64,000 nucleotides of DNA from Pelagimonas phthalicica (GTDB lineage Bacteria > Pseudomonadota > Alphaproteobacteria > Rhodobacterales > Rhodobacteraceae), in contig NZ_SOAP01000001.1 of the NCBI RefSeq assembly GCF_004364805.1, positions 1,612,001 to 1,676,000 on the forward strand. Reading direction: 5' to 3'. The notes under the pieces were generated by a model. It worked only from the letters and a program-made list of their open reading frames with translations, did no database searches and had not been told where the DNA came from. Of this stretch, positions 50,203 through 53,659 are shown piece by piece (within the stretch, counting starts at the first letter, position 1; every line of letters begins with the position of its first letter). A program made the position numbers and the translations under genes.

Positions 50203-50382
50203 TTATAATTCGGGGCAGCCCGTTCCGCCAAATCCGTCGCCATCCTGGTCGCAGGGATCGCTGGTTTTCAAGGCTGCGGGTTCGATCACCGCTTCGGTCT
50301 CCGGGCTGGGGGCGGAGAATTCAGGCTCGGTGCAGGCGGTCACGCTGAGGGCAATCAGGATCAGCAGAAGTGGTTTGCTCAT
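50203..50382 (-). CDS. Small lipoprotein with a Cys-framed DxDxDG motif
   Basis: 59 residues: signal peptide MSKPLLLILIALSVTAC with a lipobox Cys at 17, an acidic/proline linker, and a C-terminal CDQDGDGFGGTGC (44-56). The DxDxDG pattern between two Cys resembles excalibur or thrombospondin-type calcium-binding loops; calcium binding is inference. The ATG at 50382 overlaps the DUF6502 stop (ATGA), so the two genes are coupled. Codon use matches the neighbours. Confidence 0.75.
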   Translation of the reverse strand: MSKPLLLILIALSVTACTEPEFSAPSPETEAVIEPAALKTSDPCDQDGDGFGGTGCPEL

Positions 50383-51143
50383 GTGTCGCCCTCATCCTTG
50401 GAATAGAAATATGCCCCTGCCCGAAAACGGAAACGGCCTGGCCCGGTGCCTGAGCTTGAGCCTGTGGTTTTCATCGCACTTGCGCGGGTGTTCAAACCGT
50501 TGAGCAGATCCATTTGACCTTTGCGAAACTGGGCGTCAAGCTCTGCGATCTGTTCCGGTGTCAGGCCGGTATAATGCACCGCCCTTTCGAAATGCGGCGG
50601 CGCGTCTGAGTGGATGTTTTCCACGGCTGCCATGAGATGATCACCGGTGTTTTCCGACAGATAAGCCAGTTGTTCGTCACTGCCGCTTTGAGGGATGTAG
50701 GCGGTTTCGACCAAAGTGATGGTGTCGCCCACCTCAACCGTTCCGGCGGCCTGCAAGCTGTCCAGCATGGTGCGCGGATGAATGTCCTGACGAATTTCGC
50801 GCGCCAGTGTTTCAAAAGAGGGCGCGGGGCCGTTTCGTGGTAAAGCCCTCGGTAACCCGTTTTCGCTATAATCTGGATGAGACTGCCAGAGGGATACCAG
50901 CCGACTTAGCGGATTTGGGCGCGGCTCTTTACGCTGGAACGCGCGCAGGCGGGCGATGTCGCGCCGCTGCAATCCGGTCAGCACAGAAAGACGACTATCG
51001 GTAATTTTTCCCCCGGCTTGCTGGCGCGCGGCCTCTTGCGCGGCCTGCAGATAATGCCCTTTTAGTCTTTCTGACAGCTCGGAAAAGGGTACGGCGCGTG
51101 CTACCATAAGGCGTGCCAAAGCGGCGAGGATTGAGTCGAACAT
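50379..51143 (-). CDS. DUF6502-like protein with an N-terminal helix-turn-helix
   Basis: 254 residues from the ATG at 51143 (MFDSILAALARLMVARAVPF); an ATG at 51152 is possible. Residues about 46-66 (KITDSRLSVLTGLQRRDIARL) fit a helix-turn-helix, followed by a linker with SRLVSLWQSHPDY and a C-terminal part with FERAVHYTGLTPEQIAELDAQFRKGQMDLLNGLN. I recall DUF6502 as an uncharacterised proteobacterial family. The gene is divergent from the vWA lipoprotein, and two 19-bp palindromes lie just before its start, so I infer a self- and neighbour-regulating DNA-binding protein. Confidence 0.8.
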   Translation of the reverse strand: MFDSILAALARLMVARAVPFSELSERLKGHYLQAAQEAARQQAGGKITDSRLSVLTGLQRRDIARLRAFQRKEPRPNPLSRLVSLWQSHPDYSENGLPRALPRNGPAPSFETLAREIRQDIHPRTMLDSLQAAGTVEVGDTITLVETAYIPQSGSDEQLAYLSENTGDHLMAAVENIHSDAPPHFERAVHYTGLTPEQIAELDAQFRKGQMDLLNGLNTRASAMKTTGSSSGTGPGRFRFRAGAYFYSKDEGDT

Positions 51144-51152
51144 GGCTGGCAT

Positions 51153-51171
51153 AATGTGCAGATTGCACATT
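51153..51171. promoter_or_regulatory. 19-bp palindrome O1 (DUF6502/vWA intergenic region)
   Basis: AATGTGCAGATTGCACATT is a perfect inverted repeat (8-bp arms, 3-bp centre). It ends ten bases before the DUF6502 start codon on the minus strand, where a bound protein would block RNA polymerase or the ribosome site. Confidence 0.8.
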
Positions 51172-51199
51172 TGCATTGCCAAGCGCAAGATTTTTGCCT

Positions 51200-51218
51200 A
51201 ATGTGCAATTAGCACATT
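51200..51218. promoter_or_regulatory. 19-bp palindrome O2 (DUF6502/vWA intergenic region)
   Basis: AATGTGCAATTAGCACATT has the same arms as O1 with one mismatch. The centre is 47 bp from that of O1. It ends three bases before the GGAGG ribosome site of the vWA gene. Two such sites in one 90-bp divergent promoter suggest one regulator for both transcripts. Confidence 0.8.
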
Positions 51219-51232
51219 TTGGAGGTGTGGAT

Positions 51233-52540
51233 TTGGAAGGCACGTTGAACAGGGGAACACACGGGCGGTTTATCGCTTGGGTCATGAGCTGCGCCTTGCT
51301 TGCGGGCTGCGCTGATCCTGAGCTGCTGCCAGATTTCACGCCCGGCGATACAAGCGAACGAGACGTCATGGTCGAACCGGCGGTGGACATGGCTGAACCG
51401 GCTGTCTCGCCGATGATCGCCTTTGAGCCTCCGGTGGCCGGGCGGGTAAAATCGGCGCGCCGTGGGGTTGTGACCGCCGGGGATATTGACGACACGCTGA
51501 ATCTAGCCGCGTTCAAACGCTATCAGAACCGGACCGCAAAAGAGCTGGATCTGCCGCGCGCCAACCTGCTGACCCCGATTCAGGTACAAATGCTGGATGC
51601 GGCGGGCAAACCTGCGCCGGGTGTGTCCTATAACCTGCGCAAACCCGGTGCCGCTGATCCGTTCCACACGGGGTATTCCGGCGTTGATGGGCGAGTCACG
51701 GTTTTCCCGGCCTCTCTGGGCGCGGGGCGCCAGAACAAGGTCGAACTGCGCGCCTTTGAAGAGGGTGAAGAGATCTTGCGCCAGACCATCGATGCCGGTG
51801 GTTGGAACGAGGTAACCGTGCCCGCGACCAAGGGGTGGGAGCCGCGCTTTCTCGACCTGGTCTTTGTATTTGATACGACCGGCAGCATGGGCGATGAGCT
51901 GGACTGGCTCACCAAGGAGTTTTCCGGGATCGTGCGCCAGGCCCGCCGGGCCGCGCCGGGGGTCGACATCCGCTATGGTCTGGTGGCCTATCGCGACGAA
52001 GGTGATGCCTATGAGGTGCAGAATTTCGGCTTTACTGGTCAGAAGAGCCTGATGCAAAGCTGGCTGCGCAAGCTGGATGCGGATGGTGGCGGCGACTATC
52101 CCGAAGCAGCCGATCGCGCGATGCAGGCGGCGGTCAACCTTGACTGGCGGCGTGGCAAGGGGGAGCGGATCATCTTTCACATCGCCGATGCCCCGCCGCA
52201 TAAACGCGATTCACTCGCCTATATCCGCGCGGCCCAGATTGCCGCCGGGCAAGGGGTGCAGATCTTTGGCCTGGGGGCCAGTGGCGTTGGGCCGGAATCG
52301 GAATATCTGATGCGTCAGGCCTCGGTCCTGTCCAATGGCCGCTATATGTTCCTGACTGATGATTCAGGTGTGGGCAACAGCCACGCGGAACCCAACATCG
52401 CTTGCTATCAGGTGTCCAAGCTCAAGGATCTGCTCGTACGGGTGCTGCAATCGGAACTTAGCGGGTATCGCAAGGAAGTGCCCGACAGCGCCGTGATCCG
52501 CGAAGTGGGCAATTACAAAAATGGGCAGTGCGTTCAGTGA
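51233..52540 (+). CDS. von Willebrand factor A-domain lipoprotein
   Basis: 435 residues if translation begins at the TTG at 51233, seven bases after GGAGG; no ATG fits. The short leader ends in a lipobox ALLAGC. A beta-rich domain with carboxypeptidase-like/Ig-like features (QVQMLDAAGKPAPGVSYNLRKPG, about 115-200) is followed by the vWA domain. Its MIDAS motif is FDTTGSMGDEL near 213, with YRDEGDAYEVQNF and HIADAPPHKRDS. It is a surface or periplasmic protein likely to bind a partner through a divalent metal. The partner is unknown; the locus context points to the propeller protein downstream. Confidence 0.85.
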   Translation: MEGTLNRGTHGRFIAWVMSCALLAGCADPELLPDFTPGDTSERDVMVEPAVDMAEPAVSPMIAFEPPVAGRVKSARRGVVTAGDIDDTLNLAAFKRYQNRTAKELDLPRANLLTPIQVQMLDAAGKPAPGVSYNLRKPGAADPFHTGYSGVDGRVTVFPASLGAGRQNKVELRAFEEGEEILRQTIDAGGWNEVTVPATKGWEPRFLDLVFVFDTTGSMGDELDWLTKEFSGIVRQARRAAPGVDIRYGLVAYRDEGDAYEVQNFGFTGQKSLMQSWLRKLDADGGGDYPEAADRAMQAAVNLDWRRGKGERIIFHIADAPPHKRDSLAYIRAAQIAAGQGVQIFGLGASGVGPESEYLMRQASVLSNGRYMFLTDDSGVGNSHAEPNIACYQVSKLKDLLVRVLQSELSGYRKEVPDSAVIREVGNYKNGQCVQ

Positions 52541-52630: not shown

Positions 52631-53659
52631 ATGACCTATTTGAAACCTGCCCTTGCGGGGCTTTTGCTATTTGCAGCCGGTGCTCAGGCGCAAAGCATCG
52701 AAGGCCTCAGCGTGTCCCCGGATGGCAAAACCGTTTTGATGAGCGGCACCAATCGCGTGGTTTATTCCGTGTCTACCGAAACGATGGAAGTCACCGACCG
52801 CCGCTATGTGCCGCAAATGGTGCGTCAGATCATCCATAGCGATGATGGATCGATGGTCTATCTGCGCGACAATGACAAACGTCTGATCGCCTATAACACC
52901 GCCGATATGTCCGAAGCCTGGCGCACCGAGGATGCGGATGAGGTGGTTTACGCCCCGGAACAGGGCACTTTGGCCATTCTGGATGAGCATTGGAAAGATG
53001 ATTCCATCCGCTTGATGGCTGCAGATAGCGGCAGTCAGACCGCCCGCATTGCCCTGGGCAAGATGAAGACCGACATGTTTGCGCTTGGCCCGGATGGGCG
53101 CTCGGCTCTGATCCTGACCCAATCGTCGAAAAGCGATGCTGAGGTCAAAAAGGACGAGCCGGCGGATATGACCAAGCTGCAAAAGGCGGATTTCAAGCAG
53201 CGCACCGATGGCTATGTCTCGCAAGTTATCGCGGTCGATTTTGATTTGGGCGAGTTCACCCAGGCCGAAAGCCATTATCGCGTGTCCTTTCCCCATGATG
53301 TGAACATGGTCGATGGCAAATTGCTGATCCTGCGCAGCAATCTCGACAGTGCCATTGTTGGCTCGGACGGGTCTGCCGAATTGATTGATCTGGGCAAGGA
53401 TCACTTCAACTCCGCCATGTTGGACAAGGCGGGCACGACCTACATCCTGACCCGCGGTACTGATTTGCGCTTTGTGCCCGTGGGCGGTGGCGCTGCCGAA
53501 GGGTTGCTGAGCGTTCAGCGCCTGCAGGGTGGTCCGGCGGAATGGGTGACAGCGATCACCGAGGGTAAGGATGGCACCCTGTACTTTGCGACAAACGCCT
53601 ATCGCCTGATCAAGGTTCCGGCGGATCGCGGGTCAGCGCAGGTTGTCAGCGTCTATTAA
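52631..53659 (+). CDS. Secreted beta-propeller-like protein, hypothetical
   Basis: 342 residues with a signal peptide (MTYLKPALAGLLLFAAGAQA). Repeats such as SVSPDGKTVLMSGTNRVVYSVS, HSDDGSMVYLRDNDKRLIAYN and LGPDGRSALILTQS are four-strand blade-like units of about 40 residues, typical of WD40/YVTN-type propellers. No enzyme motif or haem site is visible. Its place 90 bp after the vWA lipoprotein gene suggests they work together in the periplasm. Confidence 0.78.
   Translation: MTYLKPALAGLLLFAAGAQAQSIEGLSVSPDGKTVLMSGTNRVVYSVSTETMEVTDRRYVPQMVRQIIHSDDGSMVYLRDNDKRLIAYNTADMSEAWRTEDADEVVYAPEQGTLAILDEHWKDDSIRLMAADSGSQTARIALGKMKTDMFALGPDGRSALILTQSSKSDAEVKKDEPADMTKLQKADFKQRTDGYVSQVIAVDFDLGEFTQAESHYRVSFPHDVNMVDGKLLILRSNLDSAIVGSDGSAELIDLGKDHFNSAMLDKAGTTYILTRGTDLRFVPVGGGAAEGLLSVQRLQGGPAEWVTAITEGKDGTLYFATNAYRLIKVPADRGSAQVVSVY

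Follow-up and report, generated by a model that had tools for sequence, protein, structure and literature searches.

The locus examined here raises the question of whether DUF6502 (PF20112), a family for which Pfam describes no function, controls its own gene and that of a divergent neighbor through two near-identical palindromes positioned between them, as the initial annotation of this DNA proposed. The window, by which we mean the whole 64,000-nucleotide stretch of Pelagimonas phthalicica DNA that was analyzed, encodes a DUF6502 protein on the minus strand (50379-51152), which matches PF20112 with 66.6 bits against a Pfam cut-off of 27. The protein has 257 residues from the ATG at 51152, the start suggested by the promoter geometry of its clade (clade A, below), or 254 residues from the ATG at 51143. 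The DUF6502 stop codon shares four nucleotides (ATGA) with the start of the gene for its GxGGTG partner, a 59-residue lipoprotein on the same strand (50203-50382), for which the lipobox was identified by eye and which ends in DGDGFGGTGCPEL. On the plus strand, the divergent partner is a vWA-domain lipoprotein gene (51233-52540) with a likely TTG start at 51233, a GTG at 51227 also being possible. The gene after vWA (window positions 52631-53659) appears to code for a secreted beta-propeller protein, with Pfam matches below the cut-offs, and may be part of the vWA transcript.

No NCBIfam model matches DUF6502 at E 0.01, a literature search found no paper naming DUF6502 or PF20112, and a broader literature search on the topic gave nothing relevant among the matches listed. 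Relatives of solved structure, sought by sequence, have a best E of just 0.4, and no relative was found when the window protein was used as a query against the contig collection.

Two palindromes between divergent genes

The sequence at 51153-51171, AATGTGCAGATTGCACATT, has perfect AATGTGCA-N3-TGCACATT arms, and that at 51200-51218, AATGTGCAATTAGCACATT, departs from this pattern by a single mismatch. Their centers, at 51162 and 51209, are 47 bp apart and lie between the DUF6502 gene and the vWA lipoprotein gene, confirming the twin arrangement that had been reported. We refer to these as the putative proximal operator (AATGTGCA-GAT-TGCACATT, with the core TGTG-N7-CACA) and the putative distal operator (AATGTGCA-ATT-AGCACATT, with the one mismatch), neither being assigned to a strand. 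The distal site was described as standing directly before the vWA ribosome site, and a GGAGG identified by eye at 51221-51225 does start 2 bases after it. The proximal site was said to lie ten bases before the DUF6502 start; its position is correct, but the start at 51143 on which that distance depends is probably not, as the likelier ATG at 51152 adjoins the palindrome, an arrangement conserved in clade A. When up to three mismatches are permitted, the window contains just these two sites (shuffled sequences have a mean of 0.34, and 4 of 100 shuffles reach two). They are also the only sites with zero or one mismatch in the genome (4,886,351 bases), which has one further site with two mismatches and eight with three, giving a total of 11 compared with 3 for a reversed control pattern.

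The geometry of the region was compared in 22 clade-A promoters having sites with no more than two mismatches in TGTG..CACA, with L085 dropped and also L122, which nearly duplicates L096. The center-to-center distance is 46-49 bp in 21 of these and 52 bp in one. In 17 of the 22, a TTG is found 25-26 bp away from the proximal center, and a TTG on the opposite strand is positioned 32-33 bp from the distal center, again in 17 of 22. An ATG is located 1-2 bases past the proximal CACA arm in 20 of the 22 promoters, and it is for this reason that ATG 51152 is the probable start of DUF6502. A generic promoter scan of 51050-51330 found no promoter. The TTG offsets, taken together with a 17-bp spacer, would nonetheless place both -10 hexamers on or over a palindrome edge and have DUF6502 transcription begin close to the ATG. 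In the window, the predicted DUF6502 promoter (51160-51188, minus strand) would have a -35 element TTGCGC (51188-51183), a 17-bp spacer, and a -10 element CAATCT (51165-51160) on the center of the proximal palindrome, with a weak consensus. The predicted vWA promoter (51176-51204, plus strand), likewise weak, would have a -35 element TTGCCA (51176-51181), a 17-bp spacer, and a -10 element TAATGT (51199-51204) overlapping the distal palindrome. We infer from the sequence that the DUF6502 mRNA is leaderless.

Protein bound over a -10 element or a start codon normally blocks transcription. Because both predicted -10 elements are covered and the DUF6502 start codon adjoins the palindrome, the arrangement suggests autorepression together with co-repression of the neighboring unit. 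Two DUF6502 subunits would bind each palindrome, a dimer being suggested by its twofold symmetry, with the letters of the half-site specific to each clade. Occupancy of the proximal operator, on the predicted -10 element and start codon of the DUF6502 operon, would repress DUF6502 and the GGTG lipoprotein, and occupancy of the distal operator, on the predicted -10 element of the divergent vWA gene, would co-repress the vWA unit. Repression would be released by an inducing signal, which in the boldest version of the model would be made from the GGTG protein.

Conservation of the palindrome at DUF6502 loci

Among genomes sampled from the window's family, 43 of 394 have PF20112, as do 66 of 399 from another proteobacterial order and 21 of 398 in a phylum sample. 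A first set of 69 DUF6502 loci was assembled, a tree was built and the upstream DNA was read; the rows comprise clade A, to which the window belongs (24 rows), clade B (9), clade C (14), and 22 others. The tree clades agree with the half-site classes. Clade A sites resemble ATGTGYA-N3-TRCACAT, with the half-site TGTGYA and usually two sites per locus, and clade B has a single AATGGGAA-type site (9 rows) with the half-site TGGGAA. Sites in the 14 clade C rows are of TGGAA and TGTG types (TGGAA/TGTGA), and the 22 remaining rows have mostly TGGGA types where a site is visible. A shared core, TGKR-N7-YMCA, is located within 200 bp upstream at 58 of the 69 loci (23/24 in clade A, 8/9 in B, 13/14 in C, and 14/22 in the others). 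When palindromicity is scored without regard to the letters, it greatly exceeds that of shuffled sequences for clades A and B, with a smaller excess for clade C and the rest.

Because the core had been defined on these 69 loci themselves, 80 further loci were used as a held-out test, some of them akin to first-set loci; L265, with 2 bp of upstream DNA, was dropped to give 79, and the DUF6502 places in G977 (2), G1084 (2), G835:C14, G1121:C137 and G1355 (2) were left out of this set. The core is present upstream at 50 of the 79 held-out loci, compared with 3.2 +/- 1.7 in shuffles (the largest being 7), and control stretches contain it in 5/79 and 1/79 cases inside the gene and in 2/76 further upstream. 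The core is absent from 11 of 69 loci in the first set and from 29 of 79 held out, and three of those 11 (L104-L106) have by eye a version with a spacer of 8. Spacers of 6 and 8 occur at 1 and 5 of the 69 loci and at 2 and 6 of the 79. Spacers of 9 and 11 are raised both in the held-out set (31/79 and 15/79) and in the first set (19/69 and 11/69), where spacers of 5 and 13 are raised too (22/69 and 10/69); we think that this is because the GTG/CAC repeats in the arms overlap. The initial annotation had looked to the presence or absence of the palindrome beside DUF6502 orthologs as the check on its proposal, and the palindrome is conserved there.

The divergent gene differs from clade to clade. 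In clade A it encodes a relative of the vWA lipoprotein at 13 of 24 loci and another lipoprotein, judged by eye, at the remaining 11. The divergent frame has an AMP-binding signature at 7 of 9 clade B loci and a fasciclin signature at 9 of 14 clade C loci, with one protein of each type confirmed by Pfam. The palindrome therefore travels with DUF6502 and not with any one partner.

The modeled DUF6502 structure includes a helix-turn-helix (HTH) motif. In an AlphaFold2 model built from a 66-row alignment (pLDDT 90.7, pTM 0.76), the predicted HTH consists of helices 49-56 and 60-68 (numbered from 51143; block pLDDT 91-97), which agrees with the segment, residues 46-66, that had been guessed from the sequence, and S50, G57 and R60 within it are invariant in the 66 rows. 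The model also has a second winged-helix-like unit at 110-144 and long C-terminal helices, and HTH chains make up much of the list of fold matches. Residue 61, in the recognition helix, is Arg with T, and Lys with G, at base 3 of the half-site in 90 of 98 proteins, with 8 exceptions; these 98 are what is left of 166 distinct proteins after removal of 57 without a core of at least 5/7 pairs, 9 in which base 3 was tied, and 2 where residue 61 is some other amino acid. On a tree constructed without the HTH columns, there are just 4 supported independent pairs, averaging 3.2 in agreement with the association and 0.0 against it (median p 0.25). The pairing of residue 61 with half-site base 3 is, with so few independent switches, suggestive and short of proof.

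Since a like palindrome precedes most of the DUF6502 genes examined across the Proteobacteria, the family is very probably one of DNA-binding regulators of their own operon and the neighboring gene. There is a strong case, drawn from these comparisons, that they are HTH transcription factors that bind as dimers to the TGKR-N7-YMCA palindrome and most likely repress both units. A different reading is that DUF6502 binds but mainly activates, or activates one unit and represses the other. This is favored by the clade B site, which is far upstream (about 100-150 bp) at 8 of the 9 loci, and by HetR, the whole-length fold match discussed below, which the available part of PMC4649674 describes as an autoregulated activator of its target genes. 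Clade-A sites, however, cover both predicted -10 regions and adjoin the start codon, and we regard a mainly activating role as rather unlikely, repression of both units being the reading that we prefer.

Occurrence of the site away from DUF6502

Exact sites (ATGTGYA-N3-TRCACAT) were sought in 24 clade-A genomes, the window's included. There are 0-2 per genome, except for G222 with 51; the other 23 genomes have 22 exact sites, every one of them, from a comparison of positions by eye, at the DUF6502 locus, and six clade-A genomes have none. No exact sites were found in 24 relatives without a DUF6502 match. In G132, a single case with a vWA relative and no DUF6502 match, there is no core in the 1305 bases before the vWA gene.

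Genome G222 is that of Pseudaestuariivita rosea H15, and many of its 51 exact copies lie away from DUF6502. In 20 regions of this genome (L131-L150) the copies are often paired or tripled 41 bp apart in dispersed intergenic repeats, which fall into two or more types, often near the 3' ends of genes as judged by eye, and one such repeat has 26 matches in that genome and none in 22 relatives. These copies could belong to a large regulon, act as a titrating repeat, or mark a mobile element with an acquired operator. They also bear on whether the palindromes in general are RNA hairpins or dispersed repeats and not operators, as the P. rosea copies looked at are mostly within dispersed repeats. In the window's genome, however, there are two copies only, and over many genera the palindromes keep almost the same place relative to both genes, as reflected in the 46-49 bp spacing; we consider the hairpin or repeat explanation extremely improbable, and continue to treat the palindromes as putative operators.

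When the contig collection was scanned for pairs of such sites separated by 22-50 bp, 112 stretches were obtained. The 80 of these that were classified include 21 with DUF6502, 11 further places in P. rosea, 47 others, and one (L167) that was set aside, its sequence ending just beside the sites. A MarR relative is located within 300 bp in 46 of the 47 others (among the best 80 of 112), three such proteins having been checked against Pfam, and it is therefore plausible that a MarR protein reads nearly the same sequence. L154 has the double site and lacks a MarR match. Records of MarR double operators come from Rhizobium, Bradyrhizobium, Duganella, Pseudomonas, Shimwellia and Salmonella diarizonae (L158-L162, L211, L214, L225 and others), and the MarR partners in the loci read, named by eye, are FAD monooxygenase-like or oxidoreductase-like. 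The MarR loci looked at (for example L162 and L225) are similar to DUF6502 loci in having a near-identical double operator with centers 46-56 bp apart in a divergent promoter. DUF6502 differs from these MarR proteins in being longer (254 versus about 160 residues) and in having other partner genes; the window protein has no Pfam match to the MarR families PF01047 and PF12802, and for 66 DUF6502 members no MarR families are among the matches listed (best 25 of 29 families). Operators of this type are thus apparently used also by an unrelated MarR group, of which the window's genome has remote relatives only.

The window palindromes could accordingly be bound by a MarR-type regulator encoded elsewhere, with DUF6502 merely a target, and the 46 of 47 double-site loci outside DUF6502 and P. 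rosea are the evidence for this. Against it, the window's genome offers no closer relative of that MarR than one with 28.6 bits and 30% identity, there is no further site with zero or one mismatch in that genome, the half-site shifts with the DUF6502 clade, and the palindrome stays with DUF6502 as partners change. With a best relative this distant, MarR was set aside as unlikely to be the true binder in the window's genome, and the chance that DUF6502 is only a bystander target is in our estimation small; DUF6502 itself is the binder that we favor.

The downstream protein and comparison with HetR

A DUF5666-like or short GGTG protein is encoded downstream of DUF6502 at 22/24 loci in clade A, 9/9 in B, 14/14 in C, and 20/22 in the others. 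Since 15 of the 69 loci supplied the DUF5666-like profile, their own matches are guaranteed; no held-out locus contributed to it, and 65 of the 79 have a DUF5666-like downstream protein. In the four papers found to name DUF5666, the titles and the opening parts of abstracts contain no mention of the regulator. At 23 of 24 clade A loci there is a downstream GGTG lipoprotein of 41-104 residues (the search required a lipobox and GTG), in which little is conserved by eye beyond the lipobox and the GGTG motif. Strict GxGGTG motifs are found in the downstream frame at 116 of 148 loci with at least one and at 46 with at least two, with up to seven within the available stretch. In L107, L115, L269, L271, L272, L276, L287, L293 and L307, four to seven strict GxGGTG motifs are positioned close behind a signal peptide.

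HetR, the cyanobacterial heterocyst regulator, is the only whole-length match to the DUF6502 fold, albeit a weak one, and is found with two models, the second (pLDDT 84.4) being of a member 28% identical to the window protein, with alignment rows partly common to both. Using VIA-align, HetR occupies ranks 1-4 with the first model (Z 7.7-8.0 over 202-217 residues) and also with the second (Z 7.3-7.9 over 204-212 residues), in both cases with an rmsd of 9-11 A; shorter matches tie with it, a difference of up to 1 in Z counting as a tie. The other rows are shorter, at about 50-90 residues (some sigma-factor chains reach about 100), with Z up to 7.0-7.5, and fold families beyond those on the match list may also fit. 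Values of Z below 8 are frequent by chance. Using Foldseek, HetR is at ranks 1-4 with the first model, with a best E of 0.01, and at rank 2 with the second (E 0.16), and neither model gives an E below 0.01. Searches for sequence homology to HetR gave an hhalign probability of 0.2%, or 0.1% with a larger profile, and no match with hmmsearch. An alignment made by eye between the hood of HetR and the C-terminal part of DUF6502 was discarded, 227 of 3000 shuffles scoring equally well.

DUF6502 could be a distant proteobacterial relative of HetR, with a HetR-like dimer architecture and manner of reading DNA. In favor of this are the top four ranks over nearly the whole length in models of two members 28% identical to each other, and the arms of the targets: HetR contacts GGG-N5-CCC through Arg62, Glu71 and Lys73 among others (PMC4649674, in the part available; the target is also given in the available part of PMC4192349), and HRK-type DUF6502 half-sites are mostly TGGG. 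Weighing against it are the failure of the hhalign searches to detect homology, the large rmsd with Z values tied with those of other chains and in a range common by chance, the lack of a Foldseek E below 0.01 and second place for the second model, the alignment rows shared between the models, and a spacer of N7 in DUF6502 where HetR has N5. We view the relationship as possible but doubtful. The fold of HetR is of the DBD-flap-hood type, and its flap and hood are described as novel folds (available part of PMC4649674). If a HetR-like fold and the GGTG partner both hold, a cyanobacterial type of regulator would be linked to a common proteobacterial gene pair.

The likeness extends to the company that the two regulators keep, as each would combine an HTH acting on a short palindrome, with GGG/CCC arms, with a small secreted G[ST]G-type protein alongside. 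PatX, a small secreted protein with HRGTGR, a G[ST]G-type motif, accompanies and inhibits HetR (PMC12756182, in the part available). By analogy with this inhibitory peptide, the secreted GxGGTG protein might be the precursor of a peptide signal sensed by DUF6502, the two forming a regulator-peptide pair, a speculation that we think improbable as it stands. On this view the partner has been reduced, in the window's clade, to the lipoprotein of 41-104 residues. In other lineages, tandem GxGGTG motifs directly behind the signal peptide, numbering up to at least seven, resemble multi-copy pheromone precursors; if the speculation is true, the twin-operator promoter would report the state of a peptide circuit found widely among Proteobacteria. 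The differences from HetR are also clear: the DUF6502 core is TGKR-N7-YMCA and not the HetR target GGG-N5-CCC, the motif seen next to DUF6502 is GxGGTG and not the RG[ST]GR of the HetR inhibitor, and the motif-bearing protein is, unlike for HetR, usually the product of the next gene.

These comparisons give DUF6502 a probable function, that of a transcription factor binding local operators, together with an operator consensus that can be searched for, and the clade-specific half-sites with the residue-61 association offer a testable specificity code. As a kind of regulator, the local HTH autoregulator is well known; what is new is a family that has a putative operator code of its own, together with a GGTG partner and possibly a fold like that of HetR.
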